A stretch of 64,000 nucleotides of DNA from Halovivax limisalsi. GTDB taxonomy: Archaea; Halobacteriota; Halobacteria; Halobacteriales; Natrialbaceae. Below, piece after piece: positions 2,344 through 43,771 of this stretch; the stretch's first letter is position 1; every line of letters begins with the position of its first letter. The stretch is from assembly GCF_023093535.1 (NCBI RefSeq), contig NZ_CP095757.1:496001-560000 (forward strand), in the 5' to 3' direction. The translations under genes and the position numbers were made by a program. A model generated the notes under the pieces. That model was given only the letters and a program-made list of their open reading frames with translations, did no database searches and was not told where the DNA came from.

Positions 2344-2365
2344 CACCGGTTCGGTAGATACGCTA

Positions 2366-2765: not shown

Positions 2766-2900
2766 ACCGCCCCCGACGAGCGGGACGAGGCCGCGCTGAT
2801 CGACTGCTTCTATATCGGCGGCGCGGAGCGTTCCCCCACGGAGGCGACGCTCGAGGACCTGGTCTGTGAGCGCATTGGGTTGGTCGCAGTCACGAGGGAT
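2766..2900 (+). pseudogene. Decayed duplicate of the cgi121 3' end
   Basis: Translation in one frame gives DEAALIDCFYIGGAERSPTE, followed by ATLEDLVCERIGLVAVTR. This aligns without gaps to the last 40 residues of Cgi121 (TLVDFFEITDAERSATD, then ASLGALVRERVALLEV). Roughly half the residues are identical, including AERS, TL/SL, LV and ERI/ERV. Just beyond, TCGATC...TCCGTTCCAG at 2944-2962 resembles TCGATCGGACTCCGTCCCAG after the real cgi121. The open frame that runs through it (2670-3026) starts with unrelated residues and is probably not a working gene. See the findings for the insertion hypothesis. Confidence 0.65.
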
Positions 2901-3018
2901 AGCGGCTCCGTCCGCACCCGCCGTCGAACCCCGACCGACAGTATCGATCAGTCCGTTCCAGCAACAGAACCGCGTCAAATACCATTGCATCGGTTAAAAA
3001 TCTGTCCAGGCTGGCCGA

Positions 3019-26288: not shown

Positions 26289-27020
26289 TCATCCGAGTCC
26301 GAGCGCTGCGGCTCCATCGTATCGGAAGAAAAAAAGGTAGAGCTGGGCCGCTCCCGCACCGATCAACAGGAGTCCGGACGCGCGCCGAATCCGGCCGGTC
26401 TGGCGGGAAATCCGCCGGAGGATCGCGATGCGACCGAGGGCGGCCAGCAGCGTGATGGTAATCATGAGGGCACACAATCCGCCCACGTAGGTTCCGATCA
26501 CGGCGATGGCCCCGATCGAGCCGGTTCGAAGCGCGAACCCACTCAGTCCGATCAGCAGCGGGACGGTGCATCCGGCCGCCGCGGCGCCGTAGACGACGCC
26601 GAAGAGGACGTACCCCACGATCGACCGACGGCGTGCGGGGAGCTGAATCGACGGCGGGGTGAACGGGCTCGTCGAGGTGAACGCACTTCCCGATCCACCA
26701 GCGGCCATCCGGAGGCCGAGGACGATCACGACGCTTCCGACGACGAGTTCGATCGTCACCGCGTGTTCCGTGAGCCGACCGCCAGCCGTCAGTATCGCGG
26801 CGCCGAGACAGACGAACACGAGCGCCAATCCGACGCTCACCGATATCCCGACGACCGCCGCCCGACGAAGGCGTCGGCCGACGGACCGCTCGGCACCGTC
26901 GGCGTCACCGACGTAGTACGCGACGTATCCCGGAAGCAGCGGGTACGAACACGGGGCGAAGAAGGTCGCGGCCCCCGCCGAAAACGCGAACCAGAGGACC
27001 GCTGGGGTTACCGTCGTCAT
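26289..27020 (-). CDS. CcdA/DsbD-type membrane thiol-disulfide transporter
   Basis: The 243-residue protein has six likely membrane helices and the two hallmark cysteines of CcdA: APCSYPLLPGY near residue 23 and AAAAGCTVPLL near 145. The family passes electrons from cytoplasmic thioredoxin across the membrane to extracytoplasmic thiol proteins. The gene starts 4 bases after the end of the TlpA-like gene on the same strand, so the two form an operon and probably a redox pair. Confidence 0.88.
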   Translation of the reverse strand: MTTVTPAVLWFAFSAGAATFFAPCSYPLLPGYVAYYVGDADGAERSVGRRLRRAAVVGISVSVGLALVFVCLGAAILTAGGRLTEHAVTIELVVGSVVIVLGLRMAAGGSGSAFTSTSPFTPPSIQLPARRRSIVGYVLFGVVYGAAAAGCTVPLLIGLSGFALRTGSIGAIAVIGTYVGGLCALMITITLLAALGRIAILRRISRQTGRIRRASGLLLIGAGAAQLYLFFFRYDGAAALGLG

Positions 27021-27024
27021 CGAG

Positions 27025-27690
27025 TCACGATCCGTCCCCGCCGAGGATCGATTCGATTTCCCCGGTCAACGTGGACTCGCCGACGAGCCCGGTGTGGCGG
27101 GTCGCTTCGCCTCCGTCGGGTTCGAGGAGAACGACCGTGGGAATCGTCGTCGCGCCGAACGCCAGCGTCGCGCGCAAGTCGGGGTCCATCACCACCGGCC
27201 AGGTCGCGTCGTGTTCGCGCCAGAAATCTTCGATCGCCGGTTCGTCGCGTTCCTGCGTGATCGAGACGACGAACACCGAATCGCGATCGAAGCGATCGCG
27301 AACGCGACGGAGGTTCGCCATCTCCGGCGTACACGGCGGACACCACGTCGCGAAAAAATCGAGGAGAACGACGACGTTCTTCGGGGTGATATCGACGAGG
27401 CCGCCGGGCGACCCGGCGACGTCGACGGCGGGTAGCAGGAGTGATTCGGCGGCCGTCGGGTCGACAGCCGTCTCCGAATCGTCCGCCGGAACCTCCGGCG
27501 ACGGTCCGGACGGCGACCGATCCGTTCGACCGGCGTCTGGACTGTCCGGGTTCCGACCCGTCGGCGGATCGGCGGGCGTTTCCGTCGGTCGGGTCGGTCT
27601 GACGTCGGCGAGACAGCCGGCTACGGCCGCGGCCAGCACGCACCCGCCGGTCCGAAGCATCGACCGACGACCCACGTTTCGGCCCATCAC
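27025..27690 (-). CDS. TlpA/ResA-like thioredoxin-fold lipoprotein
   Basis: The 221-residue protein starts MMGRNVGRRSMLRTGG, a twin-arginine signal with a lipobox ending at Cys26 (VAGC). A Pro-, Ser- and Asp-rich linker follows to about residue 80. The thioredoxin fold then has the active site FFATWCPPC (Cys117 and Cys120) and the cis-proline segment ATTIPTVVLLEPDG. It would work outside the membrane as a thiol-disulfide reductase recharged by the CcdA protein encoded 4 bases downstream. It is divergent from the giant RHS gene at 28103, whose product has a cysteine cluster. Confidence 0.88.
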   Translation of the reverse strand: MMGRNVGRRSMLRTGGCVLAAAVAGCLADVRPTRPTETPADPPTGRNPDSPDAGRTDRSPSGPSPEVPADDSETAVDPTAAESLLLPAVDVAGSPGGLVDITPKNVVVLLDFFATWCPPCTPEMANLRRVRDRFDRDSVFVVSITQERDEPAIEDFWREHDATWPVVMDPDLRATLAFGATTIPTVVLLEPDGGEATRHTGLVGESTLTGEIESILGGDGS

Positions 27691-27757
27691 ACGTCCTCCA
27701 TTCGCCGAGTAATATTAAGTTGTGCCTGTCGTTCCAGCGGATCGACGGAACGTCGAG

Positions 27758-27940
27758 TGAACGCGTCCCGGTGCACCGGTAGTCCGTCCCGTAGCACGAG
27801 TGAGTGCGTCCCGGTGCACCGGTAGTCCGTCCCGTAGCACGAGTGAGTGCGTCCCGGTGCACCGGTAGTCCGTCCCGTAGCACGAGTGAGTGCGTCCCGT
27901 AGCACCAGTTAGTCCGTCTCGTCGCGCCAGTGAGCCCGTC
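27758..27940. repeat. 43-bp tandem repeat array between tlpA-like and RHS genes
   Basis: Units start TGA(G/A)(T/C)GCGTCCCGGTGCACC at 27758, 27801 and 27844 with a period of exactly 43 bases; units two and three are identical. Each unit is itself two related halves (AGTGCGTCCCGGTGCACCGG and AGTCCGTCCCGTAGCACGAG). The array decays to half-units up to about 27940. The GGTGCACC part is a palindrome. The gap 27691-28102 holds this array and the short frame at 28029. Confidence 0.85.
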
Positions 27941-28028
27941 TCATTACGATTTTGTCGACATCACCTAGCGAAGTTAATAAGTGGCCCGAATCGATATGTT
28001 TATCGTTGATACCTGCGCTGGTACGGCC

Positions 28029-28112
28029 ATGAATTCCAACACCCCTTATAATGGGTGGGCCATCGATACTAAGTTACTATTGGAAATTACTAACTGTGGG
28101 GAGTGCCAGTGA
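28029..28112 (+). CDS. Possible 27-residue leader peptide upstream of the giant RHS gene
   Basis: The ATG at 28029 lies about 30 bases after a TATA-like TTTATC near 28000. It opens MNSNTPYNGWAIDTKLLLEI and ends TNCGECQ. Its TGA (28110-28112) overlaps a GTG (28109) that can start the giant protein, a classic coupling arrangement. This would explain how a GTG with only a weak Shine-Dalgarno-like GGGG is reached. It may still be a chance frame. Confidence 0.35.
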   Translation: MNSNTPYNGWAIDTKLLLEITNCGECQ

Positions 28113-31100
28113 GTGCCGCCGATCGGACGGGTTCGACTCGCGACCGGACGGCGGCGATCGTCTTTTCGGTACTGATGATACTTTCGGTGGTGGTTGTACC
28201 CGTCGGGGCGACGGTCGAGTCTTCCGCGTCGATCGACGGGACGCCCGTCGGCGTCGGGCCAAACGGAATCGCCGCCGAGAACGGGGATCCGACGAGCGAT
28301 CGGTCGGAGGAGTCGGCCTCGACGACCGAACTCGGTGAGAAGACGCCCGACGAGGTGGACGACTTCGCCGTGCCCGATCGTGGAACCACCGGCTACGAGT
28401 CGTGGTACACGTACCGAAACGGCGTCAATCTCGCGAACGGCAACCTCTATCGGTCGAGTACGGACGCGTCGGTCGGCGCTCGCGCCGGCCCCATCGAGTT
28501 TACGCGGTCGTACAACAGTCGCGCGAGTCACGAACCCGGTCCGCTCGGGTTCGGGTGGACGCACGAGTACGCCGCCCGCCTCGACGTCCTCGTCGACGGC
28601 GTACGCTTCGTCGACGGCGACGGATCGGAACACGTCTTCCAGTCGGCCGTCGACGGCTTCGATACGCCCGCCGGTCTCGACGCGCGCCTCGTCGCGACCG
28701 ACGACGGCTACGAGCTTCGATGGAGCGACGGGCGGACGTTCGGATTCGACGAGGGGGGCGTCCTCCGGTGGACCGCCGATCGGAACGGAACCGGCGTCAC
28801 GCTCGAGTACACCGACGGCGCGCTCACGAGGATCGTCGACGACGCCGGGCAGGCGCTGTCGATCTCGTACGACGCCGACGGATGGATCGAGACGGTCGAG
28901 GATCCGCTCGGTCGAACCATACAGTACGACTACGACGTCGGGGATCTCGTCTCGGTTACCGGCGCGTCGGGCGAGACGACCTACGAGTACTTCGAGAACC
29001 ACAAACTCCGGAAGATCTCGCGCCCGACGGGCATGCTGACGACCGTCGACTACGAGTCGGGTTCCGATCGCGTCCGTCGCGTCGGCACCGGTCTGACCGA
29101 GGTGCAGTGTGCGCGCTCCGGCGTCACGTTCGCGTACGATTACGCGAACGACTCCGTCTCCTACGTCGACGGCATCACCGGGACCGAGACGACGGTGGTG
29201 CTGAACGAGGCCGGCAATCCCGCGTCGATGGCGTGGGACGACGAGACGGCCGAGTGGGCCTGGGACGACGAGCTGAACCTCGTCGGGGCGGAGAACGCGA
29301 GCGGCTCGTACGAGTTCGTCTACGACGCGCACGGAAACCTGCTCGAGCGAAGCGGGCCCGACGGGACGGTCGGCTACGAGTGGTTCGTCACGGAGACGAC
29401 CGACCGGTACCTGTCAGTCCGTACGAGCGAAACAGACGCCGCCGGCCGGACGACCGCGTACGAATATGACGATCGCGGAAACCTCGTCGCGGTGACGAAC
29501 CCCGCGGGCGCCCAGCGAACGTTCGAGTACGACGCGACGGGCGATCGCGTGGCGGCGACCGATCCCGCCGGCCACCGGACGACGTACGCGTACGACCACC
29601 GCGGATTCCTCACCGGCGTGACGGAGCCGACGGGCGCCGTGACGACCTACGAGTTCGACGCCGTGGGTCGACTTCTGACGGAGACGACCCCGCGGGGGGA
29701 CGCCTACGAGTACACCTACGACGATCGCGACGCGCTGCTGAACGTCACCGATCCGGCGGGGAACGTCCTCGAGTACGTCTACGACGAACGGGGAACGCAG
29801 ACCGGCATCGTCCGCTCCGTCGGCGAGAGCGGAACCTCGTCGACCCTCTCGACGATCGGGTCCAACGTGGGGCAGTCGAGATACGATATCGAGATCGACG
29901 GCGACGTCGTCACGTACCGTTCCGACGAACACGACCTCGTCCGTCGGTTGAACGCCCGCGGACGATTGGCGTCCGAAACGATCGATTACGGGCCGTTCAC
30001 GTCCGATCTCGACTACGCGTACGACGAACGCGGGAACCTCGTGGCGATCGCGACCGGCGGCGGCAACTACACGTTCGAGTACGACGCCTCCGACCGCGTC
30101 AGTCGGGCGACAGGGGTGGACGGCTCCTGGCTCGAGTACGCCTACGACGCGATGGATCGGGTGACGCAGACGACCGCCTCGAACGGCGTCACGACGACGT
30201 ACACGTACGACGAGGGCGGGAACGTCGCGTCGCTCCGCGCGGTCGACGCGTCCGGCGGGACGGTGCTCGACGAATCGTACGGCTACGACCTCCTCGGCAA
30301 CCTCGAGACCGTGACCGACGCCTCCGGATCGACCACGCAGTTCGAGTACGACGCGCTCGATCGCCTGGTGGTCGCGACGTACCCCTCGGGCGAGACCGTC
30401 GAGTACGCCTACGACGCCATCGGCAACCGACTCTCGAAGACCGTCAACGGGACGGAAACGACGGACTACGACTACGACGCCGACGGCACACTGTTGCAGG
30501 CCGGCGACACCGCGTACGAGTACGACGCGAACGGCAGCCTCGCGGTCAAAACCGTCGAGCGAGCGGACGGGACCACCGCGCGCACCGAGTACGAGTACGG
30601 TCAGGGTGGCCAGCTCGAGCGGGTCCTGCTACCGGACGGCGAGACGGTCTCGTACACGTACCTGCCCGACGGCGAGCGGGCGAGTAAAACGACGAGCAAC
30701 GGGACCACCTTCTACAGCTACAGCGACTTCCAGCTGCTCGGCGAGTACGGCGAGGACGGCGCCCTCGACCGCGGCTACCTCCAGGGGGCCGGCCTCGACA
30801 CGCCGATCGCACGCTACGACGAAGACAGCGACGAGGCGTACTTCTACCACATCGACGCGCGAAACGACGTGCGAGCGGTGACCGACGCCGCCGGCGGCGT
30901 CGCGAACCGGTACCGGTACGAGGCGTTCGGGGCCGTCCGGCACGCCGAAGAGTCCGTCGCGAACCCCTACAGATTCGCCGCCAGGCCGTTCGATTCGGCG
31001 GTGAACCTCTACTACAACCGCCAGCGCTACCACGACCCGGAGGTCGGACGGTTCACGCGCGGCGACCCGGCGGGGACGGTCGCCGGGGTCAACCAGTACG

Positions 31101-34100
31101 TCTACGCCGACAACAACCCGGCTACCTACACCGATCCGTTCGGCTTCGCCACGTGGGACGGCGGCGTCACGCTCGGCGGCGTGTCGCCGGGCAAACTGGG
31201 CGTGATCTCGATCGCGAGCAAGGGTGACATGAGCGGGTCGCTCAGTAACGGAGACACCGGGCAGGGGTGTTCGATCAGCGGCACCATCACCACCTACGGC
31301 CTGAACGTCGAACTGAGCGCGATCAAAGCGGAGATCGGCGCGATGCCGCTCGTGATCGGCGGCCCGACGTGCGGGGAATCGCTCCCCGGCATGACGATCG
31401 TCTGCGGCGGTATCGCGGGCCAGCTCGAAGCGGCGGCCGGCGTCGAAGTCGGCGCGTTCGCCTGCGGCGATACCCGCTCCGGCGGCTACAGCGGCGGTGC
31501 CGGCTCCGCGAAGACCGGAGTCACCGCCGGCGCCGGCGCGGGCGTGACGCTGTTCGTCAGGATCGACATCGCCGATTCGGAGTGTTCCTGCGTCGATGAG
31601 TGCGATAGCTGCAACGAAGACGACGACGAGCCGCCGCTGGGCGACGGGCCCAGCGCGCGACCGCCGGGCGGCGACCACCCCGACGACAACCACGACGTCT
31701 CCGTGCGACGCTACGCCGCGCGAACCGACGACGCATCGATCCCCGCGTACGGCTACGACGACGGCTCGATCGCGATGCTCGATCGGGGATTCGCCGACGA
31801 GTTCGGCGACTTCCTCGCCGACCAGGAGTTGCCGTACGACTCGGTGTCCTGGACGGTGCCGGCCGAGGAACTCGCGGCGTACGACCTGTTGATCCTCCCG
31901 AGCGGGTCGCTCACCGGGTTGACGGCGCTCGATACCTTCGAAGCGAAACTCGAGGCGTACGTCGACGGCGGCGGATCGCTCCTGGTCATGCCCCAGCAGC
32001 GGGGCTACCACTGGGGTCCGGTTCCCGGAGACCTCGCCGCGTACGGGTGGCTCGAAGATCAGAGCTGTCAGTTCGACTCCGTCGGGATCGACGCGACCTG
32101 CCCGGCGTTCGCCTCCGAGGCGGTCGGCGGGGAGAGTTCGCTGAACGTCGACGGCTACTTCACCGACTACCCCTCGAACGCCGAGATCCTCCTGACGCGC
32201 ACGAAGAACGCCCAGCCGGCGATGCTCGCCTACGACCGGGGTGCCGGCCAGGTGATCGCGACGACCGCCTACTCCGACTGGGCGTACGGACACCATGCTG
32301 CCAGTAGCGCCGACGAGCGGATCCTCAGGGATACGATCCGCTGGGCGCGATCGCACGACGACATACCGACGTACAATCGCGGCGAGGACGTCGACCTGCA
32401 CGTCGAGGCGACGAGCTACGTCGATCTCGCCGTCGAGCGCACCGATATCAGGGTGCGCGATCCGGACGGCGATATCGTCGACTCGGTCACGGTGACCGAC
32501 CCCGTCGCGGCGCTGTCGACGGCGAACCTGAGCGCCGCGCTGACGATTCCGACGGACGCACAGTACGGTATCTGGGACCTCGAGTACGTCTTCGAGACCG
32601 ACGCGCACGGGCCGGTTCAACGTGTCGTCGAACGCGACAGCCTCGCGATCACGCGGTACGAGGACGGCGACGACGGCTGGCGCGCGAGCGACAGTAACGT
32701 CTCCGTCTCGATCAACAGCGACGCGGAGCGGTACGCGCTCGGATCGAACGCGGCGTTTACGATCACGGCGCACAACCGCGGAGACCGAGAGGAAAACGTC
32801 ACGCTGTGGTGGAGTTTCCCGCACAACGCGCGATACGGTAACGCGTCCGTCTACGGATCGGGCGGCACACACCCCGGCGAGACGAGCAACCTCACCAGGC
32901 AACTCCAGCTCGGGCCGAACGGCGGCGGTAACGACGAGGCGACGTTCACCGTCGAGATACCGGTCGTCAACGCGGACGGGCGCGATCGCCTCTGGCTCGA
33001 GTACGCCGAGGAACGAAACGGCGAACTGGACCTCGTCGGTCGAGCGAGCCGCGGATTCTACACGTTCGAACCGTCGGTGGCCGTGACCATGTCCGCGGGC
33101 GCCGAGACGTACACCGGCGGGCAGACGGTCCCCGTCGACGTGGAACTCTCGGGCACCGGCGTCGAGAACGCCACCGTCGTGACCAGGATCGTCGCGGCCG
33201 ATCGGTCGCTCCACTTCCGGAACGAGACGGTGCGCTCCGTCGACGGGTCGACGACGCTCTCCTACGCCTACGCGCTCCCGTCCCCGACCGTCGACGGGCG
33301 GTACTCGGTCGTCACCGAGGTCCTCGACGCCCGGGGCGAGAAGATCGGCTTCCAGACGACCGGGTTCGACGTTCCCCTCGGCCTGGCGTTCGACGCGTCG
33401 ATTCCCGAGACGATCGGCGCGTCGAGCGATCTCGCGTTCACCGTCGAAAACGTGGACACGGCGCCGTTCGACGACGCCCTCGTCGACGTCTCGCTGGTCG
33501 ATCCGGCGGGAACGGTGGTCTGGTCCGACGCGGCGACGAGCGACGTCGGTCGCAACGAGACGAAGACGGTCGCGTTCCAGGTCGACGTGGACGACCTCTC
33601 GTTCGGGACGCACACGTTGCTGTACGTGCTCGACGCCGGCGCCAGCCGATTCGAGCGTCGCTGGTCGCTCGAGAACGACCACGCCGTCGACGCCGACTTC
33701 GATCGAGCCCGCTATCGCCAGCGCGAGAGCGCGGCACTGAACGCGACGATCTCGAACCGCGGCCGGTTCGAAACCGCCTTCGACGCGGTCGTCACCGCAC
33801 CCGCGGCCGACTTCGAGACCGTTCGGACGGTCGAACTGGCCCCCGGCGACCGCGAGTACGTGACCGTGGTCGTTCCGCTGCCCGCCGACATTCAGGCAGG
33901 CGAGCACGACGTGGCGGTGACGCTCGTCGACGGGTCGAACCTGACGGAGACGTACTCGTTCGTCGTCCCCGACTCCGAGCTGGTGTTCGATCGCGTCGAC
34001 GAGACGGCCGCGGCCGGAACCGACGTCGAAATCGTCGTCGGGAATCGCGGCGGCGTCGACACCGACGCCGCGTGCGCGTTCGAGTTGATCGGCCCGCAAG

Positions 34101-37100
34101 GAATCCGACTCGACGAGGGGCAACTGGCCGACACGGTTCTGGCCGGGGAGACCGCGACGACGACGGTCCGGATCCCCGATCAGGCGGTCAGCGGCGGATA
34201 CTTCGTCACCTCGTCGTGCACCGACGGGACCACGGGCGCCTCCTTCGAGACGATCGACGTCGTGGCGGTCGACGGACTCGACGCCGACGCGACCGCCGGG
34301 ACCGACGCGGACGTCTACGGGACCGGCGACACCGTCACGGTCTCCGCCGATATCGCGAACAACGGCGCTGCGATCGCGGACGGTCGACTCCGCCTCGAGA
34401 TCGCGGATCCGTCGGTGAGCGAGGGGTCGGACGCGAGCGAGGCTGCGGACGGAATCGCCGCGAGCGCGCCGGAGGCGGATTCGACGGAGCGTGCGATCGA
34501 TGACAGTGCACGCCTCGACGGCGTCCGGTCGTCGTGGGTCGACGGGACGTCGTGGGTCGAGCAGACCATAGCGACGTCCGGGATGTATTCGATCGCGACG
34601 GGAGCCGTCACCTCCGCTTCGGACGGAGGCGACAGCGTCGCCGCAACTGGCAGTGACGGCCCGACGGCGACGGAACTCGATAGCTCGGTCGCGCGCTGGG
34701 TCGACGTGCCGGGGACGATCACCGACGACGTCGTCTGGGAGGACGAAGTGATCGTGCTCAACGAGTCGCTGGTGATCGACGCCAACGGGTCGGTGACGAT
34801 GCGGAACGCCACGCTGCGATTCGACGTCGCCAGCGAGGGCGAGTTCGGCGTCGAAGTCCGCGACGGCGGGACGCTCGACGCGTTCGACGGATCGACCATC
34901 ACGAGTCACGACGAGGGGTGGAATCCGACCGAGTACTCGTTCACCGCGCTCCCGGGCGCGACGGTGTCCATTCGGGACTCGACCGTTCGCGACGTCGGCG
35001 CGGACTCGGAAACGCCGACGAGCGAGCGGGGGCTGTACGTCGCGGCGAACGACGTGGTCGTCGAGAACGCCACGATCGAGAACGTGCGGTTCGACGTCAT
35101 CCTCGAGGCCGTCGACGGCGTCGCGATCACGAACAGTACGATTCGAGAGCCGCTATCGGTCAACGCGTCGACCGGCGTCCGCATCGAGGGGAACGCGTTC
35201 GAAGACGGTAGCGGCGTCGACCTCAGCCACTCGAACGGCAACCTCGTCGCGGGGAACGCGTTCGGGGATCTCGATGCGCAGTACACGATCTCGCTCGAAA
35301 ACGCGAGCGACAACGTCCTTAGGGCCAACACCTTCGGAAAGACGGGCGGCGTCGAACTCGTCTCGAGTTCGTACGGCAACGAGCCCGGGACGCGATCGGT
35401 GCGAAACACGATCGCCGACAACGCGTTCTACCAGACGGATACGTACGGTAACGACGCGGACGGCATCACGATCGAAGCGGGGTCGACGGACACGGTCGTC
35501 GAGAACAACACGCTCGTCGGCACGGACCGGGAAGCGATCCTCGTCCACGCCCCGAACGCGACGATCGCGAACAACACGATCCGCGAGGTCGAGGATCACG
35601 GGATCCGCGTCACCGCCGCGAACGCGACGCTCGCGGACAACGCGATCGAGCGCAGCGACGGATTCGGTATCCTCCTCGACCGGACCGTGAACGCGACGCT
35701 TCGGAGCAACGACCTCGTCTCGAACGGCATCCACATCAACGGCCATCAGGACGGCGTCCCGCCGTACGAGCCGGGATCGGTGCCGGATCGACGCTACTAC
35801 GAGCACGACATCGACGGGAGCAACGCCGTCGACGGCGGTCCGTTCCAGTATCTGGTCGATCAGACCGGCGGACAGATCGTCCTCGACGGCGGCGCGGCGT
35901 GGCTGCTCAACGCGACTGACGTGACGGTCACGGGCGACGGAACCGCCGCGGCCGTCCTGTCAGAGGGCGTCGAACTACGCGACCTGAACGCCTCGGCTGA
36001 CGCCTACTTCGGCGTGTTCGTCGCCCACTCCGACGGGACGACGGTCTCGAATGTGACGTCGAACGGAAACGCGTACGGGCTCGCCGTGCTCGGGGCTTCG
36101 CAGTCCGGTCCGGCGACGTACGCGAACGAAACCTCCGTGACGGACAGCAGGTTCTCGGCGAACCGTCGCGGCAGCATCTACGCGCGAAACGTCGGCGGGT
36201 TCTCCGTCCGAAACGTCACCGCCGGCACTGAGACGAGATCGGGCGATCGGGACGTGGATATCGTCGGCGGCGAGTCCGTGACCGTCGCTGACCTCGCCCT
36301 GGACGAACGTGGTTCGTTCGGCGGATACGGGACCGGGGTGTCCTTCGATCGAACCTCGAACAGCGAGATCCGCGATAGCACCGTCCGGGGGTACGATCGC
36401 GGCATCGACGTCGAGGCCTCCTGGAGCGCATCGAACGTCACGGTCCAGAACGTGACGACCACCGGGAGCGACGGGACCGGCATCTTCGTGCGAACCGCGG
36501 ACTCGACGATCGCCGACAGTCGCGCGTTCGTCGCGGCCGGAACGGGGATCCGCGCGAACGGTGACCACTCCACCGTCGCGAGAAACAACGTGAGCGGTGC
36601 CGAAATCGGGATCAATACGGGCATCACGGGCGGCCTCGTCGCGGACAACGAGGTCACCGGCGCCGGCGAGTACGCGATCCGCATTCAGTCGCCCGACGGG
36701 ACCGCCTCCGGCAACGTCGTGCGCGAGAGTGCGACAGGCATCGTCGTCGACAGCTACGCGGGCGGGACGGTCCTGACCGACAACGTGCTCGCCGGCGATA
36801 CCGTCGACGTCCAGTTGTCCGATAGCGACCCGGTGACGATGCGGAACAACACGCTGGCACACGCCGGACTCGCCTTCGACTTCGGTTCGTACTCGAACCC
36901 GGGACCGACCGATTACGACCACGACATCGACGAGAGCAACGCGGTCCGGGGCGAGCCGCTGACGTACCTCTTCGACGAACACGACGTCGATATCGACGTC
37001 CCGGGGCGGCAGACGTGGATCGTCAACTCGAGTAACGTCACCGTCGACGCCCCGGCGCAGGCGGCCGTCCTCTTCTCGAGCGAGACGACGGTGCGCAACG

Positions 37101-40100
37101 CCGTCGTCTCCTCGTGGCGGAACAACGGGATCGAGGTGAGCGGGTCGACGAACACGACGATCTCGAACGCGACCGTCGCGGACACGGGGACCAGTATATA
37201 CGACGGTGGGATCTCCGTCAGCGAATCGAGCGGAACGACGATCCGCGACGCGAACGTCTCCGGCAACGCCGGGGACGGGATCTACCTCTACGCGGCCGAT
37301 GCGACCGAACTGTCCGACGTGACGGTCGACGGAAACGGCCACTACGGGATCTACCTCAACACCGACGTCACCGCCAGTACGGTCACCAACGTCACCGTCT
37401 CGAATCACAGCGACGCAACTGGCATCTACTTCGGGTCCGCGACGGGGAATCTCCTGACTAACGTAACGTCAGCGTACAACGCTCGCGGCATCTACGTCAG
37501 TGCGAGCGGAAACGAATTCAGGAACGTCACGTCGTCCAACAACGACGAGTACGGGATTCGAATAACGGAGGACGACAACGTGATATCGGACAGTACGGCC
37601 GACGCCAACGGCGAATCCGGCTTCCACATCTACAATGCCGGATACACTACTCTCTCGAACCTTACGGCGACCGCCAACGGCGAAGCCGGACTCGCCGTGC
37701 AAGGGTCGCACAACAACGTCACGAACAGTACGTTCGGCGAAAACGACCGCTACGGCGTCCACTTCACCCACGCCCGAAACAACCTGTTTACCCGGAATTA
37801 CGTGACGGACAACGCCGTCCACGGCGCGTATCTCGAGGCGGAGTCGTTCGACAACCTCCTCTACGACAACTACTTCGACAACCCGGCGGCCGACGCCGAG
37901 GCCGAGGAGCACGCGGGGTACTGGGGTGACGCCCCGTCGGAGAACCGGTGGAACGTGACGAAGACGCCCACCGGCGAATCGGCCGAAAACGTCGTCGGCG
38001 GGCCGTTCTACGGCGGCAACTACTGGGCGACGTACGACGGGTCGGACGCCGACGCCGACGGGATCGGCGACACGAACACGCCGTACACCGTCTCCGGATC
38101 CCTCTTCGCGGGCGACCACAATCCGCTCGTCTTCGAGTCCGACGAGAACGCCTCGCGCGTGGTCTGGGCGACGACGGAATCGATCGACGTCGCCGCGGGC
38201 GAAACGGTGACGGTCGACGTCGAGGTCCCGGCGTCGCAGCTCGAGGGCGAGGGCAAACGGGTCCTCTCCGCCACGCTCGACGCGGCGACCAACCAGACGG
38301 TCGCGTCCTCGAACGCGCCGTTCTACGTCCTCGACGGCGAGACGTCCCTCACGATGGCCACCGACGCGAGACGGTACGCGACGGGCGACACCGTTCGGAT
38401 CGAGGGCGCGCTCACCAACGACGGCGCCGCGAGCGAGACGTACGATCTCGCGATCGAGAAAAACGGGACGCCGATCCACGAGGCGACCGTCACCCTCGGC
38501 GCCGACGAGCGTCACGACTACGCGCTGACCACGGTCGCAGACGGGCCGTTCACGCTCGCCGCGACCGCCGGGGACGTCAGGATCGACGACGAGGTCGCGG
38601 TGGCCGAGCCGTCGGTGGACGCGACGGCCGTCGCGCCCGAGGTAGTGGGTCTCGAACCGTTCCCCGTCGGGGCGCAACTCGAGAACGACGGCGACGTCCC
38701 GGTCGATCTCACCGTCGCGGTCGATCCCGACGTCGGGACGATCGAAACGGTGACGCTCGAACCCGGCGAGCGAACCCGGGTGACCGACGAGACGGCGATC
38801 GCCGACGATACCACGTTCACGATCGTCGTCTCCGGCGACGTCGAGGCGACGCTCACCGAGACGGTGACGGTCGGCGAGTCCGCCGCGACGACCGTCTCAC
38901 CCGCGGCCGTTTACGCCCCGGGAACGATCGTCGTCCCCTACACCGTCGAGAACACCGGCGAACTCGACGCGACGTTTGACGTGGAATTCGCGGTGGGCAA
39001 CGAGACGGGACGCGAGACGGTGTACGTCGCCGCGGGCGCGAACGCGAACGGATCGGTCGCGTTCGACCTCGAAGCGGGCACGCACACCCTCGCGTACGAG
39101 ACCCCGTTCGAAACCGGCGACGCGACTGTCGAGGTGCGCGACCGCGACCAGCTCGTCCTTTCGGCCGACGTGCCGGCGAACGCCACCGACGGCACCCTCG
39201 AGATGGATCTCGCCGTCGAGAACGTCGGGTCGAACGACCTGAACGGGACGATCGTCGCCGACACGACGGTGTCGAGCGCCGAGCGCGGCTTCGACGTGGC
39301 CGCCGGCGAGACCGACAGCGTGACCGTGACCGTCCCGATTCCGGCCAGCGTCCGGCCAGGCGCGTACGACGTCTCCATCGAGGCGACGGCGGGCGACGAC
39401 ATCCTCGCGCGGGTAGCCGAACCGTTCGAGGTTCGAGGCCCGCAGTTCGAACTCGAGGCCACGCCCGGCCGGGAGACGTTCGAACTCGGCGAGCTGGCGA
39501 CGTGGAACTACACGGTGTACAACGCGGGTGACGCCGAGGGGCGAGTCGCCCTGGCCGTCAGCGCCACCGGGATGTCCGAGGGTGGCGCGGTCCAGCGCGA
39601 CGCCGCCTGGTTGGCCCCGGGCGAGCGCCGGACACTGCGCGTCGACGTCCCGATCGCCGACGACGTCGAGGCGGGTGCCTACGACGCGTCGTACGAACTC
39701 GCCGACGACGGCGGCGCGCTCCTCGCGACGGGCGAGACGACGTTCGACGTCGCAGGGGCGAACGTGAGCGTCAGCGCCACCCTCGACCGGCCGGCCTACG
39801 AGGTGGGCGAGAACGCCACGCTGACGCTTTCGATCACGAACGAGCGCCCGACGACCATCGACCTGTTCGCGCGGACGCAGTTCAACGGATTCGACGAGCG
39901 CACCGACCTCTCGCTCGGCGGCGGGGCGTCCGAGACGGTCACCGTCGACGTGCCGATCACCGAGGGCACCGACGAGAAGATCTTCTTCGGGGTCTACCAC
40001 GCGGACGGGCGGTCGCTGCACATCGACGGCCGGTACGCACACGAGCGGACGGGGAACGTGACGCTGTACACCGACGCGGACCGGTACGAACCGGGCGAGT

Positions 40101-41482
40101 CGGTCACCGTCACGGTCGAACCGCGCGCGTCGGGCGAGCTGGTTCTCGCCGCACCCTGGAACTCCTGGAGCGCGAACGTCACGGATGGCGTCGACGAAAC
40201 GTTCGAATTCGAGGTGCCCCCGTCGCGGACGGGCACCTACTACGTCCACTACGCCTTCGAGAACGAGACCCGCTCGTACCCGTTCGACGTCGACGGCTAC
40301 GGGGCCCGGGTGACCGGCGCCCGATTCGGTGCGGACGAGTACCGGGGCGGGGAGACGGTGGACCTCGAACTCGAACTCGCGCCGTCGCGGGACGTCCTCG
40401 CGACGGTGACCGGGACGCTCGTCGACGAGTCCGGCGAGGCGATCGCGAACGCCAGCACGGCCGTCGCCCTCGAAACCGGCGGCACCGACGCCCGCCTCTC
40501 GATCGACGTCCCGGCCGACGCGGCCGGCGTCCACGCGATCTCCTACGAGATCACCGCCGACGTCGAAGACGAAGGCGGTGCGGCGACGGCGCACGCGGCG
40601 GCCGTCAGCTCCCGACAGGTCCTCGCCGTCAACGGGATCGAGTACCTGGAGATCGAATCCGCGGCGACGAATCGACCGCCGGTCGCCGCCGTCGACTACG
40701 CCCCGTCCGACCCGACCGTCGGCGAGGAGGTCACCTTCGACGCGTCTCACTCGAGCGACCCGGACGGCTCCATCGCGGCCCACGAGTGGGACTTCGACGG
40801 GGACGGCAGGATCGACGCGGTCGGCGCCACCGCGACCACCGCGTTCGACGCGGCCGGCACGCACGCGGTGACGCTCTCCGTGACGGACGACGACGGATCC
40901 AGCGACGAGACGACGGTGACCGTGCCAGTCACCGAGGCTGACGACGATGACGGTGACGATGAGGATGACGACGGCGATAGCGGTGATGACGACGGAGACG
41001 ATGGCGACGGAGACGACGGAGATACTGGTGACGATGACGACGAGGACGACCAGTCGTCGGGTGACACCCCGCCGACGGCCGCGATCCAGATCGATCCCGA
41101 CCCGGCGACCGTCGGCGAGTCCGTGACGTTCTCGGCCGGCAACTCTTCGTACGCTGCCGGCGAGCTCGTCGCGTTCGAGTGGATCATCGACGGGCGATCG
41201 TACGCGGGCGAGACGGTCTCCGAGACCTTCGACGTCGCCGGAACCGTCGACGTCGAACTCGCGGTCACCGCCGCCGACGGCGAAACCGCCGCCGCGAGCA
41301 CCACTCTGGTCGTCCGGGAAGCCGCGGATGAGCCGCCGGACGACGGCGACGCAGACGATGAAACGCCCGGCGATGGCGACGACGATGACGGCGGGTCTCC
41401 GATCCCCGGGTTCGGTGCGGCCGCCGCCATCCTCGCGCTGCTCTGGGTCTCCCTCCTGTCCCGCCGCCGGAATCGCGCCTGA
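28103..41482 (+). CDS. Giant RHS/YD-repeat surface protein with beta-helix, PKD and PGF-CTERM anchor
   Basis: The protein has about 4459 residues from a GTG at 28103; a second GTG at 28109 fits coupling better. Domains: signal helix 15-36; RHS entry block about 98-158 (NGVNLANGNLYRSS); YD repeats about 160-890 (such as YEYDDRGNLVAVTNPAG); RHS core about 890-1015 ending YVYADNNPATYTDPFGF; a Gly- and Cys-rich segment about 1016-1195 (CSCVDECDSC); a ThuA/GATase-like domain about 1200-1422; CARDB-type Ig-like domains to about 2190; a right-handed beta-helix about 2213-3336 (repeated NATIANNTI-like turns); more CARDB domains; PKD domains about 4191-4278 and 4322-4406; and the anchor IPGFGAAAAILALLWVSLLS plus basic tail. 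The product should be exported and fixed to the membrane by archaeosortase. RHS shells usually enclose a toxin placed after the core; here the core is followed by surface modules. No immunity-like gene is evident next to it. Confidence 0.9.
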   Translation: MPVSAADRTGSTRDRTAAIVFSVLMILSVVVVPVGATVESSASIDGTPVGVGPNGIAAENGDPTSDRSEESASTTELGEKTPDEVDDFAVPDRGTTGYESWYTYRNGVNLANGNLYRSSTDASVGARAGPIEFTRSYNSRASHEPGPLGFGWTHEYAARLDVLVDGVRFVDGDGSEHVFQSAVDGFDTPAGLDARLVATDDGYELRWSDGRTFGFDEGGVLRWTADRNGTGVTLEYTDGALTRIVDDAGQALSISYDADGWIETVEDPLGRTIQYDYDVGDLVSVTGASGETTYEYFENHKLRKISRPTGMLTTVDYESGSDRVRRVGTGLTEVQCARSGVTFAYDYANDSVSYVDGITGTETTVVLNEAGNPASMAWDDETAEWAWDDELNLVGAENASGSYEFVYDAHGNLLERSGPDGTVGYEWFVTETTDRYLSVRTSETDAAGRTTAYEYDDRGNLVAVTNPAGAQRTFEYDATGDRVAATDPAGHRTTYAYDHRGFLTGVTEPTGAVTTYEFDAVGRLLTETTPRGDAYEYTYDDRDALLNVTDPAGNVLEYVYDERGTQTGIVRSVGESGTSSTLSTIGSNVGQSRYDIEIDGDVVTYRSDEHDLVRRLNARGRLASETIDYGPFTSDLDYAYDERGNLVAIATGGGNYTFEYDASDRVSRATGVDGSWLEYAYDAMDRVTQTTASNGVTTTYTYDEGGNVASLRAVDASGGTVLDESYGYDLLGNLETVTDASGSTTQFEYDALDRLVVATYPSGETVEYAYDAIGNRLSKTVNGTETTDYDYDADGTLLQAGDTAYEYDANGSLAVKTVERADGTTARTEYEYGQGGQLERVLLPDGETVSYTYLPDGERASKTTSNGTTFYSYSDFQLLGEYGEDGALDRGYLQGAGLDTPIARYDEDSDEAYFYHIDARNDVRAVTDAAGGVANRYRYEAFGAVRHAEESVANPYRFAARPFDSAVNLYYNRQRYHDPEVGRFTRGDPAGTVAGVNQYVYADNNPATYTDPFGFATWDGGVTLGGVSPGKLGVISIASKGDMSGSLSNGDTGQGCSISGTITTYGLNVELSAIKAEIGAMPLVIGGPTCGESLPGMTIVCGGIAGQLEAAAGVEVGAFACGDTRSGGYSGGAGSAKTGVTAGAGAGVTLFVRIDIADSECSCVDECDSCNEDDDEPPLGDGPSARPPGGDHPDDNHDVSVRRYAARTDDASIPAYGYDDGSIAMLDRGFADEFGDFLADQELPYDSVSWTVPAEELAAYDLLILPSGSLTGLTALDTFEAKLEAYVDGGGSLLVMPQQRGYHWGPVPGDLAAYGWLEDQSCQFDSVGIDATCPAFASEAVGGESSLNVDGYFTDYPSNAEILLTRTKNAQPAMLAYDRGAGQVIATTAYSDWAYGHHAASSADERILRDTIRWARSHDDIPTYNRGEDVDLHVEATSYVDLAVERTDIRVRDPDGDIVDSVTVTDPVAALSTANLSAALTIPTDAQYGIWDLEYVFETDAHGPVQRVVERDSLAITRYEDGDDGWRASDSNVSVSINSDAERYALGSNAAFTITAHNRGDREENVTLWWSFPHNARYGNASVYGSGGTHPGETSNLTRQLQLGPNGGGNDEATFTVEIPVVNADGRDRLWLEYAEERNGELDLVGRASRGFYTFEPSVAVTMSAGAETYTGGQTVPVDVELSGTGVENATVVTRIVAADRSLHFRNETVRSVDGSTTLSYAYALPSPTVDGRYSVVTEVLDARGEKIGFQTTGFDVPLGLAFDASIPETIGASSDLAFTVENVDTAPFDDALVDVSLVDPAGTVVWSDAATSDVGRNETKTVAFQVDVDDLSFGTHTLLYVLDAGASRFERRWSLENDHAVDADFDRARYRQRESAALNATISNRGRFETAFDAVVTAPAADFETVRTVELAPGDREYVTVVVPLPADIQAGEHDVAVTLVDGSNLTETYSFVVPDSELVFDRVDETAAAGTDVEIVVGNRGGVDTDAACAFELIGPQGIRLDEGQLADTVLAGETATTTVRIPDQAVSGGYFVTSSCTDGTTGASFETIDVVAVDGLDADATAGTDADVYGTGDTVTVSADIANNGAAIADGRLRLEIADPSVSEGSDASEAADGIAASAPEADSTERAIDDSARLDGVRSSWVDGTSWVEQTIATSGMYSIATGAVTSASDGGDSVAATGSDGPTATELDSSVARWVDVPGTITDDVVWEDEVIVLNESLVIDANGSVTMRNATLRFDVASEGEFGVEVRDGGTLDAFDGSTITSHDEGWNPTEYSFTALPGATVSIRDSTVRDVGADSETPTSERGLYVAANDVVVENATIENVRFDVILEAVDGVAITNSTIREPLSVNASTGVRIEGNAFEDGSGVDLSHSNGNLVAGNAFGDLDAQYTISLENASDNVLRANTFGKTGGVELVSSSYGNEPGTRSVRNTIADNAFYQTDTYGNDADGITIEAGSTDTVVENNTLVGTDREAILVHAPNATIANNTIREVEDHGIRVTAANATLADNAIERSDGFGILLDRTVNATLRSNDLVSNGIHINGHQDGVPPYEPGSVPDRRYYEHDIDGSNAVDGGPFQYLVDQTGGQIVLDGGAAWLLNATDVTVTGDGTAAAVLSEGVELRDLNASADAYFGVFVAHSDGTTVSNVTSNGNAYGLAVLGASQSGPATYANETSVTDSRFSANRRGSIYARNVGGFSVRNVTAGTETRSGDRDVDIVGGESVTVADLALDERGSFGGYGTGVSFDRTSNSEIRDSTVRGYDRGIDVEASWSASNVTVQNVTTTGSDGTGIFVRTADSTIADSRAFVAAGTGIRANGDHSTVARNNVSGAEIGINTGITGGLVADNEVTGAGEYAIRIQSPDGTASGNVVRESATGIVVDSYAGGTVLTDNVLAGDTVDVQLSDSDPVTMRNNTLAHAGLAFDFGSYSNPGPTDYDHDIDESNAVRGEPLTYLFDEHDVDIDVPGRQTWIVNSSNVTVDAPAQAAVLFSSETTVRNAVVSSWRNNGIEVSGSTNTTISNATVADTGTSIYDGGISVSESSGTTIRDANVSGNAGDGIYLYAADATELSDVTVDGNGHYGIYLNTDVTASTVTNVTVSNHSDATGIYFGSATGNLLTNVTSAYNARGIYVSASGNEFRNVTSSNNDEYGIRITEDDNVISDSTADANGESGFHIYNAGYTTLSNLTATANGEAGLAVQGSHNNVTNSTFGENDRYGVHFTHARNNLFTRNYVTDNAVHGAYLEAESFDNLLYDNYFDNPAADAEAEEHAGYWGDAPSENRWNVTKTPTGESAENVVGGPFYGGNYWATYDGSDADADGIGDTNTPYTVSGSLFAGDHNPLVFESDENASRVVWATTESIDVAAGETVTVDVEVPASQLEGEGKRVLSATLDAATNQTVASSNAPFYVLDGETSLTMATDARRYATGDTVRIEGALTNDGAASETYDLAIEKNGTPIHEATVTLGADERHDYALTTVADGPFTLAATAGDVRIDDEVAVAEPSVDATAVAPEVVGLEPFPVGAQLENDGDVPVDLTVAVDPDVGTIETVTLEPGERTRVTDETAIADDTTFTIVVSGDVEATLTETVTVGESAATTVSPAAVYAPGTIVVPYTVENTGELDATFDVEFAVGNETGRETVYVAAGANANGSVAFDLEAGTHTLAYETPFETGDATVEVRDRDQLVLSADVPANATDGTLEMDLAVENVGSNDLNGTIVADTTVSSAERGFDVAAGETDSVTVTVPIPASVRPGAYDVSIEATAGDDILARVAEPFEVRGPQFELEATPGRETFELGELATWNYTVYNAGDAEGRVALAVSATGMSEGGAVQRDAAWLAPGERRTLRVDVPIADDVEAGAYDASYELADDGGALLATGETTFDVAGANVSVSATLDRPAYEVGENATLTLSITNERPTTIDLFARTQFNGFDERTDLSLGGGASETVTVDVPITEGTDEKIFFGVYHADGRSLHIDGRYAHERTGNVTLYTDADRYEPGESVTVTVEPRASGELVLAAPWNSWSANVTDGVDETFEFEVPPSRTGTYYVHYAFENETRSYPFDVDGYGARVTGARFGADEYRGGETVDLELELAPSRDVLATVTGTLVDESGEAIANASTAVALETGGTDARLSIDVPADAAGVHAISYEITADVEDEGGAATAHAAAVSSRQVLAVNGIEYLEIESAATNRPPVAAVDYAPSDPTVGEEVTFDASHSSDPDGSIAAHEWDFDGDGRIDAVGATATTAFDAAGTHAVTLSVTDDDGSSDETTVTVPVTEADDDDGDDEDDDGDSGDDDGDDGDGDDGDTGDDDDEDDQSSGDTPPTAAIQIDPDPATVGESVTFSAGNSSYAAGELVAFEWIIDGRSYAGETVSETFDVAGTVDVELAVTAADGETAAASTTLVVREAADEPPDDGDADDETPGDGDDDDGGSPIPGFGAAAAILALLWVSLLSRRRNRA
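40934..41053 (+). repeat. GATGAC-type low-complexity tract coding an acidic linker
   Basis: About 120 bases of GAC, GAT and GGA/GGC codons encode an almost pure Asp/Gly/Glu linker between the two PKD domains. Such microsatellite-like DNA can change length by slippage in steps of codons. Confidence 0.8.
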
Positions 41483-41586
41483 CGGCCGTCTGCGAAACAC
41501 GTACCGGGGCCGTCCCGGCGAGCTATCGACCGCCGCGTCCACGGATCGTCCGCGAGTTTATATACCAGGTCGCGGCCAGAGTCCTC

Positions 41587-42333
41587 ATGCTCGAAGACAC
41601 CATTCGAGTCCTCGCCGGCGACTGCACCGTCCTCTTCGAGGGAGCCGATCGAACGGAGTATCGCGGCCGGGTGACGACCGTCGTCAAGCCGGACAACACG
41701 GTTCTCGTCCACGACGTCGACGGCTACCAGCCCGTCGCCTGGCTCACGCGGGCCGACAGCGTCGCCAGCGACCACTCGGGCGGCTTCTCACTCGTCGCTC
41801 AGAAAGACGACCAGCTCCTTCGGATCGTCACGCACGAGAGCGACGGTTTTTCGAACTATCACGCCTCGCCGGCCGGGAATCCGATCGGGACGTGCCGGAC
41901 GTGCGACGGGACCTTGATCCGGGCGGGCGACGTCCGATGTCTCGATTGCGGCGTTCGGTACGCGATCCCCGACGACGCGACGGTTCGCGAGGAGTCCTGC
42001 GACTGCGGCCTGCCCAGAATCCGCGCCGAGCGCGGCCTCGCGTTCGATATCTGTCTGGATCGCGACTGCGAGTCGCTCGACGACGCCGTTCGCGAGGCGT
42101 TCGATCGCGAGTGGGAGTGTCCCGAGTGCGACGGCGACCTGCGAATCCTCCGACGCGGCGGCCTCATCGCCGGGTGCGAACGCTACCCCACTTGCGAGAC
42201 CGGCTTCGTCGTCCCGACCGGTGTTCTCGACGGCCGGTGTCCGTGCGGCCTCCCCGCCTTCGATACGGGTTCCGGCCGTCGATGTCTGGACGCGGGCTGT
42301 GATCGCGCGGCGAGGCCGACGGTGGCGGAGTGA
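41587..42333 (+). CDS. NucS-type N-terminal domain fused to topoisomerase-type zinc fingers
   Basis: The 248-residue protein starts with a domain (residues about 1-75, CTVLFEGADRTEYRGRVTTVVKPDNTVLVHDVDGYQPVAWL). It closely resembles the DNA-binding N-terminal part of the mismatch endonuclease NucS. The NucS nuclease core is absent. Instead there are four Cys-based fingers of the topoisomerase I C-terminal type: CRTC...CLDC, CDC...CLDRDC, CPEC...CERYPTC and CPC...CLDAGC. A single-stranded or branched DNA-binding adaptor is a reasonable inference. A TATATACC element around 41559-41566 lies 25 bases before the start. Confidence 0.78.
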   Translation: MLEDTIRVLAGDCTVLFEGADRTEYRGRVTTVVKPDNTVLVHDVDGYQPVAWLTRADSVASDHSGGFSLVAQKDDQLLRIVTHESDGFSNYHASPAGNPIGTCRTCDGTLIRAGDVRCLDCGVRYAIPDDATVREESCDCGLPRIRAERGLAFDICLDRDCESLDDAVREAFDREWECPECDGDLRILRRGGLIAGCERYPTCETGFVVPTGVLDGRCPCGLPAFDTGSGRRCLDAGCDRAARPTVAE

Positions 42334-42469
42334 GATGACCGATCGGACGAGCGAGCACGACCGGTCACCCGACCACGACACCGGTCGGTGGCCCGGCTGT
42401 CGAACCCATCCCCAGGATCGCCCCCGGACGTTCCAACATCCCTTTGTGCGACGGCAGCCAGGCTCGACC

Positions 42470-43636
42470 ATGGCACTCGAGGGCGTCCTCGACGGCGATG
42501 TCGTCCGCGTCGGGGCCGACGCGCGACAGCGATTCCACGACGCGCGCGGGTACGGCTATCCCCTTTCGGGCAACGAGATCGCGCTCTCGCCGGTGGAAGC
42601 GGCGCACCTCCTCTACACGGACAATCTGACCGGCATCCGGGTCGAGGACGACGAGGCGTCGGCGCTCGACTTTCGGGCGTTCGTCGCGCGCGAACCGGGC
42701 ACGAACTTCGCCGTCCGGTATCTCGTCTACGCGGACCTGCGATCGCGCGGGCTCTACCTCTCGCCGGCGCGCGAGCCCTGGATCTCGCCGGAGCGCTTCG
42801 ACGACGTCACGGACCGGACCGACTTCGCCGTCTACCCGCGCGGACAGGGGCCGGGGGACGGCGACCTCGCGTACGCCCTGCGGGTCGTCGGCGAGCGGAC
42901 CGACGTCGCCGCGAGCGACCTCGACCCCGGCGTCCTGGCGGTCGTCGACGAGGAGAGCGAGCCCACGTACTTCGAACTCGCGGCGCCGTCGATCGAGGGC
43001 GATAGCGCCCGCGTCGCCGAACGGGGGCCGGGAGTGGCCGACGCGGCGCCGGCCGACGCCGACGCAGCCGGTATCGAGCAGGTCGGCACCGAACCGGCCG
43101 ACGCCGATCTCCTCACCGACCGCGTGATCGTCTGGAATCCGCCCGAAGCGCTCTACGAACGAACGTTCTTCGGCCAGCCGCTCGACGGGCGCGAGTACGA
43201 CGGCGACCGCCCGGCCATCCAGTGTTCGTTGCTCGAAGCGACGTACCTCGCTCGCCTCGGCGCGATCGATCTCGACCCTCGCGACGTGGCGGATCGCGGT
43301 CTCGCCGTCGAGGGTGATCGGTTCGCCCGCCGGCGCCGGGTGTACCGGACCCTCCGCGAGCGCGGCGTCGTCCCCAAGACGGGTTACAAGTTCGGCGCGG
43401 ACTTTCGAACCTACGCCGACGTCGAGTCGGTCGACGACCTCGGTCACTCCGCGCACCTGATCCGGGTCGTTCCGTCCTCGCACGTCTTCGAACCGCGCGA
43501 CCTCTCGCTCGACGTCCGCCTGGCCCACGGCGTCAGGAAGACGCTGGTCGTCGCGATCGTCGCGGACGAGCCCGCACATCCTGACGATCCCGGCGAGGGA
43601 ATCACCTGGCGGTCGATCGAGCGACTAACGCCGTGA
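42470..43636 (+). CDS. endA: tRNA-splicing endonuclease EndA (two-repeat, homodimer type)
   Basis: The 388-residue protein is built of two EndA repeats (about 1-175 and 210-388). The first is degenerate and the second carries the catalytic triad: Tyr in KTGYKFGADFRTY (near 305), His in LGHSAHLIRVV (near 327) and Lys in VRKTLVVAIV (near 355). It cuts bulge-helix-bulge motifs in intron-containing tRNA precursors. The repeats are joined by an Ala-, Asp- and Glu-rich loop (GVADAAPADADAAGIEQ). The ATG at 42470 opens with MALEGVLDGDVVRVG, matching the family; the frame upstream is non-coding in character. Confidence 0.92.
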   Translation: MALEGVLDGDVVRVGADARQRFHDARGYGYPLSGNEIALSPVEAAHLLYTDNLTGIRVEDDEASALDFRAFVAREPGTNFAVRYLVYADLRSRGLYLSPAREPWISPERFDDVTDRTDFAVYPRGQGPGDGDLAYALRVVGERTDVAASDLDPGVLAVVDEESEPTYFELAAPSIEGDSARVAERGPGVADAAPADADAAGIEQVGTEPADADLLTDRVIVWNPPEALYERTFFGQPLDGREYDGDRPAIQCSLLEATYLARLGAIDLDPRDVADRGLAVEGDRFARRRRVYRTLRERGVVPKTGYKFGADFRTYADVESVDDLGHSAHLIRVVPSSHVFEPRDLSLDVRLAHGVRKTLVVAIVADEPAHPDDPGEGITWRSIERLTP

Positions 43637-43771
43637 CGTGATCGACCCGATGACTCGACCGGCCGGAGCTCTGGGGCGCGATCGATCGAAGCCACCCGGC
43701 CCCGATTTTCGCCGCTCGTCGACGTGAACGATGGCGAACGCTTTAGCCCGTCGCGCGGCTAGGCCGATTGA

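Follow-up and report, generated by a model that had tools for sequence, protein, structure and literature searches.

A giant haloarchaeal surface protein with an RHS head, an internal variable segment and a modular scaffold

The cargos of RHS proteins are thought of as C-terminal segments that are released. What could an RHS protein do, however, whose core is followed by more than three thousand further residues and a surface-sorting signal? This question is raised by a giant gene of Halovivax limisalsi, found in a window of 64,000 nucleotides (contig NZ_CP095757.1, positions 496,001 to 560,000, the whole stretch analysed, to which the coordinates below refer unless another locus is named). 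Polymorphic toxins have been described as rare in archaea, and a 2012 survey reported them only in a few methanoarchaea (stalked RHS proteins of the Methanosarcina type) and in haloarchaeal injection systems (PMC3482391).

Layout and relatives of the giant gene

A preliminary description, made from the sequence alone, had proposed a single gene of 4459 codons at 28103-41482 that encodes an RHS core, a Cys-rich segment, Ig-like domains, a beta-helix, PKD and a PGF-CTERM signal in this order. The open frame and the Pfam/NCBIfam matches bear this out. The end of the core was also placed correctly (near residue 1015, at DPFG): the DPxG motifs lie at 988 and 1011 and the core ends at 1014. The features are as follows.

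28103..41482 (+): gene of the giant surface protein, 4459 aa (GTG start; open frame; full-length colinear ortholog)
28103..28210 (+): putative Sec-type signal peptide, residues 1-36 (read from the sequence: basic n-region, hydrophobic core, VGA)
28355..31144 (+): RHS/YD-repeat head, residues 85-1014 (RHS_repeat, Rhs_assc_core; phmmer and Foldseek matches to RHS cages)
28418..28639 (+): DUF6531, the N-terminal RHS module, residues 106-179 (Pfam, E 2.1e-17)
31025..31144 (+): predicted aspartyl self-cleavage site with R975, D988 (DPAG) and D1011 (DPFG) (motifs, alignment)
31145..31660 (+): variable internal cargo slot, residues 1015-1186, Gly/Cys-rich with 8 Cys (homologous in Natronobiforma only; unrelated in the archaeal family f22)
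31583..31612 (+): Cys cluster C1161, C1163, C1167 and C1170, right before the scaffold (sequence)
31661..32392 (+): start of the scaffold, PPGGDHPDD motif and ThuA/GATase1-like domain, residues 1187-1430 (motif in all relatives; fold by model)
32393..34282 (+): Ig block A, residues ~1431-2060, first domain MG2-like (Pfam MG2/NEW3-type; colinear in Nitrospirota; VIA-align)
34703..38137 (+): right-handed beta-helix insert, residues ~2201-3345 (NosD/Beta_helix)
38138..40642 (+): Ig block B, residues ~3346-4180 (colinear with Nitrospirota and f22 scaffolds; A2M_BRD-like match)
40670..40924 (+): PKD, residues 4190-4274 (PKD_4, E 1.8e-19, two stretches)
41393..41473 (+): PGF-CTERM archaeosortase sorting signal, residues 4431-4457 (TIGR04126 above cut-off)

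The head belongs to the RHS/YD-repeat proteins: nine RHS repeats (E 5e-49) and an Rhs-associated core ending in DPxG (residues 939-1014, E 9.5e-21) were matched in Pfam/NCBIfam. The same searches yielded MG2/A2M/NEW3-like Ig domains and NosD/beta-helix stretches (residues ~2280-3313, E 4.6e-67). The latter share only the beta-helix with the NosD copper protein, as NosD_copper_fam scored 58.9 bits where 300 are required. Behind the PKD domain, another PKD-like stretch and acidic linkers were seen. When the C-terminus was scanned alone, TIGR04126 scored 25.8 bits (cut-off 24.5), in line with the PGF motif, the hydrophobic segment and the basic end that mark archaeosortase-anchored surface proteins. 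Of the 13 cysteines of the protein, eight fall within residues 1056-1170. It is the sole RHS protein found in its genome.

RHS cores occur in 4 of the 391 sampled Halobacteria, H. limisalsi included. A full-length ortholog is present in Natronobiforma cellulositropha (4721 aa), which is colinear over its entire length (22-55% identity, depending on the region), contains PGF-CTERM (30.5 bits) and keeps nearly all cysteines, C336 of the putative shell among them. As the same domains and nearly all cysteines recur colinearly in another genus, the layout is not due to chance. The order RHS-ThuA-Ig was also found in three genomes of f22 (same phylum, another archaeal family), namely in the RHS-head scaffold proteins of G1065 (3735 aa), G1188 (2959 aa, truncated where its contig ends) and G1220 (also truncated). 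We do not claim that the RHS-scaffold fusion arose only once, since the haloarchaeal and f22 heads were not firmly grouped together in a tree of the RHS cores. The giant gene is absent from four congeners of H. limisalsi. The preliminary statement that no described system has this architecture thus has to be narrowed: five genomes contain the RHS-plus-scaffold form, while no paper on RHS combined with PGF-CTERM was found in the literature searched.

Other archaeal RHS proteins were encountered as well. Two of the other three Halobacteria with an RHS core, G324 and G359, hold proteins distinct from the giant one (~2000 aa, injection-system-like or Tc/SpvB-like). The loci L019 (4209-10175) and L020 (7880-13888) encode haloarchaeal RHS proteins, SpvB/Tc-like and injection-system-like, that end soon after the core. 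In another genome of the same phylum (L139, G1300:C1:80001-100000), ten RHS core matches lie within ~70 kb, possibly an archaeal RHS array.

The RHS head and the segment behind its core

Residues 454-1014 of the head match solved closed RHS cages (phmmer, E 8e-56) and, more weakly, teneurins. An AlphaFold model of residues 36-1200 could be built from a two-sequence alignment only and has an open shape (mean pLDDT 51, pTM 0.30) with locally confident RHS strands; its Foldseek match to RHS cages is local (E 5e-38, TM 0.16). Because of the two sequences, the local confidence and the open shape, the model was used neither for nor against closure. A closed shell around the RHS head is what we infer from homology. 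RHS and teneurin-like cages enclose cargos of ~15 kDa in small cavities, reported as about 28,000 to 44,000 cubic angstroms (PMC13018210, PMC8636562). Such volumes suit a slot-sized segment (163-282 aa, the order of these cargos) and rule out that the entire tail is enclosed.

The aspartyl self-cleavage site of the bacterial teneurin-like protein BiTLP consists of R2103, D2116 and D2140 (PMC13018210), and such a site has also been described for Rhs1 (PMC8636562). In the giant protein, R975, D988 and D1011 align with RhsP (DPTGF) and TccC3, both Asp motifs included, and the spacing of 13 residues between Arg and the first Asp equals that of R2103 and D2116 (PMC13018210). The three residues are kept in all five RHS-scaffold proteins, as read from the core tails of the relatives, with the first DPxG degenerate in two f22 loci (L133 and L135). 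The Arg/Asp/Asp cleavage residues of RHS polymorphic toxins are thus present and conserved, and a cut is expected after G1014.

The segment between DPxG and the scaffold measures 172 residues in the giant protein and 163, 217, 282 and 194 in the other four. Its conservation differs from that of its flanks in the f22 loci compared (L133, L135 and L151). Between L133 and L135, the last 330 residues of the core are 64% and the ThuA-like domains 68% identical, and the slot reaches 25%, the level of shuffled sequences (mean 23, max 28; BLAST E 2.2). The corresponding values for L133 and L151 are 69% (core), 64% (ThuA) and 29% (slot, E 9e-6), and those for the giant protein and its Natronobiforma ortholog 51%, 55% and 37% (slot, E 1e-13). 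In all remaining pairs of the five proteins no similarity between slots is detectable. A hypervariable segment therefore directly follows the core, at shuffle level between flanks of 61-68% identity in these few sequences. Since the two haloarchaeal cargos are homologous, replacement of the slot is seen only within f22 and between families (five sequences).

By its sequence, the slot has the conservation profile of an RHS cargo, but a conserved scaffold comes after it, so that the canonical variable position is internal. The preliminary view that a tail of 3400 residues stands in place of the variable toxin holds for the tail but not for the replacement, as the position behind the core is taken by a slot of 163-282 residues, non-homologous between lineages. 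The variable segments right after the core that it suggested looking for do exist in the five-protein comparison, inside the chain.

None of the RHS-head slots matched a Pfam family, a known toxin or a catalytic family. The slot cysteines are conserved between the two haloarchaea, and Cys-rich stretches also precede the scaffold in L135, L064, L149 and L150. The GC content is even across the slot and junction of the giant gene, unlike in imported toxin tips. A transmembrane pore-forming cargo was considered and rejected, the hydropathy being too low (maximum 1.28 for the haloarchaeal cargo and 1.36 for L133; only L135 exceeds 1.6).

Two genes next to the giant gene concern thiols.

27025..27690 (-): TlpA/ResA-like thioredoxin, WCPPC, Tat/lipobox-like N-terminus, divergent neighbour (Redoxin, E 1.9e-14)
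26289..27020 (-): CcdA-like membrane thiol carrier, PCSYPLLPGY, two conserved Cys (45% identical to the DsbD_TM-like protein encoded next to the Natronobiforma ortholog)

The TlpA-like protein is 47% identical to its counterpart beside the Natronobiforma ortholog, and the CcdA-TlpA pair represents the sole conserved neighbours of the giant gene in these two otherwise non-syntenic haloarchaea. For this reason an unrelated housekeeping role of the pair was rejected. The pair fits a cargo that holds eight of the protein's cysteines; the link stays suggestive, since CcdA-TlpA pairs also adjoin other genes in other haloarchaea. No immunity-like gene was found beside the giant gene, nor one conserved in both haloarchaea. 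Downstream lie a NucS_N-like gene and a tRNA endonuclease gene, both with housekeeping roles and present in congeners without the giant gene. In one congener (L105, 5381-8403), a response regulator/histidine kinase pair occupies the junction between the DUF7090 and the NucS_N/tRNA-endonuclease genes, which indicates that the chromosomal site is variable.

Two further observations were made in the window. A tandem repeat (27754-27934; 43-bp unit, 4.2 copies, 92% matches), which may be regulatory, lies in the intergenic region that separates the giant gene from the divergent gene of the TlpA-like protein. The gene at 54734-60874 (-) encodes a second giant surface protein (2046 aa), which combines a PQQ-type beta-propeller with PKD, CARDB and carboxypeptidase-regulatory domains and has a dockerin-type domain at the C-terminus; relatives of its C-terminal part occur on the contig of Natronobiforma.

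The scaffold and its other heads

The ThuA-like fold named in the preliminary description stands as a modest-confidence model and has no Pfam family behind it. The model of residues 1187-1420 (pLDDT 58) matches GATase1/ThuA-type structures with Z up to 12.2 (3rht 10.5; the ThuA-like 4jqs 10.4), and the domain next to it is modelled as an MG2-type Ig domain of complement and alpha-2-macroglobulin (Z about 9). A profile of the ThuA-like domain found no credible match among PDB sequences.

When named genomes were scanned with the post-core region, the PPGGDHPD motif and the ThuA-Ig part were found in one bacterium of the Nitrospirota and one archaeon of the Methanomethylicota. At E 1e-10 the scaffold is present in 23 of the 296 sampled Nitrospirota genomes. 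Local alignments show two conserved blocks, the ThuA-like domain with Ig block A (1220-2050 in the giant protein) and Ig block B (3350-4150). The insert between them varies: a beta-helix in the giant protein, an NHL propeller in L062 and ~200 residues in L063.

The heads vary as well. Elsewhere the scaffold is preceded by a transglutaminase-like domain, Amidase_6, a Zn-phospholipase-C-like domain (below cut-off), a thioredoxin, a head with a HELIH motif, or by a signal peptide alone. The HELIH example is an f22 scaffold protein (L149, 1266-10145, -) with a metalloprotease-like head that lacks a Pfam match. In the ThuA tree, it sits among the f22 RHS-head proteins on equally short branches, which points to head swapping. 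As the tail is common to several unrelated heads in archaea and Nitrospirota, RHS appears to be one of several exchangeable heads. The 'GGDHPDD' scaffold family is a modular surface scaffold that is undescribed in the literature searched.

Some members deserve separate mention. The f22 archaeal scaffold protein of L150 (3094-13599) has a thioredoxin head followed by a Cys-rich stretch, which echoes the TlpA neighbour of the haloarchaeal genes. In Nitrospirota, stand-alone secreted proteins of ~385 aa (L071, 5824-6972; L072, 5647-6801) consist mostly of the ThuA-like domain and have a GADQPDD/E motif. The scaffold had no match among IMG/VR viral contigs and its ThuA-like part none among PLSDB plasmids, so that there is no sign of a phage- or plasmid-borne origin; the pattern of the RHS head likewise had no relative among viral contigs.

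Possible roles and comparison with known systems

The preliminary description had put forward an anchored contact weapon, an adhesin and a shell that protects the Cys-rich segment; all three are possible. We lean towards a lipid-anchored modular stalk that displays an RHS cage with a self-cleaved, tethered and exchangeable cargo. In this case, the protein would be exported through its signal peptide and anchored via PGF-CTERM/archaeosortase processing. The tail of beta-helix, Ig and PKD domains could serve as stalk, holding the RHS head away from the cell. Like other RHS cages with their ~15 kDa cargos, the head would enclose the 172-residue, 8-Cys segment behind the core. R975, D988 and D1011 would then cut the chain after DPFG, whereupon the cage is expected to be held only non-covalently and the cargo to stay joined to the anchored stalk by its C-terminus. 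Opening or pulling off the cage would expose the cargo, still tethered. In haloarchaea, the CcdA-TlpA pair next to the gene probably maintains the disulfides in the Cys-rich cargo. Since the cargo position is exchangeable as in RHS polymorphic toxins, contact-dependent action on neighbouring cells would be the most likely use; antagonism by an RHS cage protein is plausible, if unproven. The tethered cargo draws further weight from the other heads on the scaffold, which look like effector or enzyme domains. It is weakened by the lack of an immunity-like gene and of any match of the cargos to known toxins, by a model without a closed shell, by the degenerate first DPxG of two f22 members and by the homology of the two haloarchaeal cargos, which limits replacement to f22 and to comparisons between families, with five sequences altogether. 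That such proteins form an archaeal class of contact-dependent weapons, with a mid-protein exchangeable RHS cargo tethered by an archaeosortase-anchored stalk, within a wider scaffold family that swaps effector heads in archaea and Nitrospirota, is offered tentatively.

The main rival, which we regard as rather unlikely though not remote, is a teneurin-like adhesin for other cells or substrates. The RHS head would act as a structural adhesive or receptor, as in animal teneurins, and the slot would fasten the head onto the stalk like a plug, with no effector involved. The very long anchored stalk of beta-helix, Ig and PKD domains would fit this role, as would the slot with its conserved cysteines, homologous in both haloarchaea, and the missing immunity gene; teneurins do use an RHS shell for adhesion (PMC13018210). 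A plug, however, would not need replacement by unrelated sequence between conserved flanks. Moreover, the self-cleavage residues are kept in the giant protein but absent in mammalian teneurins (PMC13018210), and sister scaffolds have enzyme-like heads.

Those same heads (transglutaminase-like, Amidase_6, Zn-PLC-like, thioredoxin and HELIH-motif) speak for a display of degradative or processing activities in nutrition or surface maintenance, the RHS cage carrying a redox-regulated enzyme or binding domain. The CcdA-TlpA neighbours would agree with this, and N. cellulositropha is named as a cellulose user. We nevertheless consider such a role improbable, as no RHS-head slot matched a catalytic family and the known roles of other RHS cages lie with toxins or adhesion rather than nutrition. 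An accidental fusion of the 3' part of a classical secreted RHS polymorphic toxin gene to a neighbouring surface-protein gene could be imagined from the scaffold-free RHS proteins of related archaea, but is contradicted by orthologs that share the fusion, fully colinear in two haloarchaeal genera and present in f22, and by the even base composition over the junction, and is hardly credible.

If the tethered cargo is correct, an internal, exchangeable RHS cargo on an archaeosortase-anchored stalk would amount to another mode of delivery, intermediate between bacterial toxins and animal teneurins, and interactions between archaeal cells could then be tested in a group amenable to genetics. Regardless of this, the scaffold common to archaea and Nitrospirota is itself a surface system with swapped heads that is undescribed in the literature searched.

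Compared to known systems, the giant protein is a variant RHS protein whose scaffold family is undescribed, a combination not found in the literature searched. With the bacterial RHS polymorphic toxins (Rhs1/Tre23, RhsP, RhsA, Tse5, Tse15) it shares the DUF6531-type start, the probable RHS shell, the Arg/Asp/Asp residues and a non-homologous, toxin-sized segment right after the core. In contrast to these, its variable segment is internal rather than a C-terminal toxin, with ~3270 residues of conserved scaffold and an archaeosortase anchor after it, and the gene comes without T6SS parts and without an immunity gene. Since it has neither the C-terminal toxin nor the immunity gene, it is not classed with the classical polymorphic toxin systems.

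BiTLP and animal teneurins have a surface-displayed RHS shell, as predicted for the giant protein, and the geometry of the cleavage site in common with it. BiTLP encloses a small C-terminal domain, which a disulfide joins to the shell plug (PMC13018210). Unlike the giant protein, it is anchored N-terminally, ends with its cargo and has NHL and an FN-plug, and downstream immunity genes have been reported (PMC13018210). The teneurin superfold of FN-plug, NHL and YD-shell was not recovered here: NHL had no match in the giant protein, and TEN_YD-shell scored 14.2 bits in the ortholog against a cut-off of 50.

The RHS toxins of haloarchaeal injection systems (Halogeometricum type; PMC3482391, PMC11566945) likewise have an RHS core in haloarchaea, but measure ~2000 aa, lack stalk and anchor and end soon after the core; the proteins of G324 and G359 look like these or like the Tc/SpvB type. 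The stalked RHS proteins of Methanosarcina (PMC3482391; relatives were found here) are exported archaeal RHS proteins too. Their long part, however, precedes the core, and the chain ends 162-220 residues after it. The 'GGDHPDD' scaffold proteins of Nitrospirota and Methanomethylicota (L022, L023, L062-L065) follow the same order of ThuA-like domain, Ig block A, insert and Ig block B. They differ in their non-RHS heads, and an NHL propeller, CARDB or FG-GAP takes the place of the beta-helix and the anchor.
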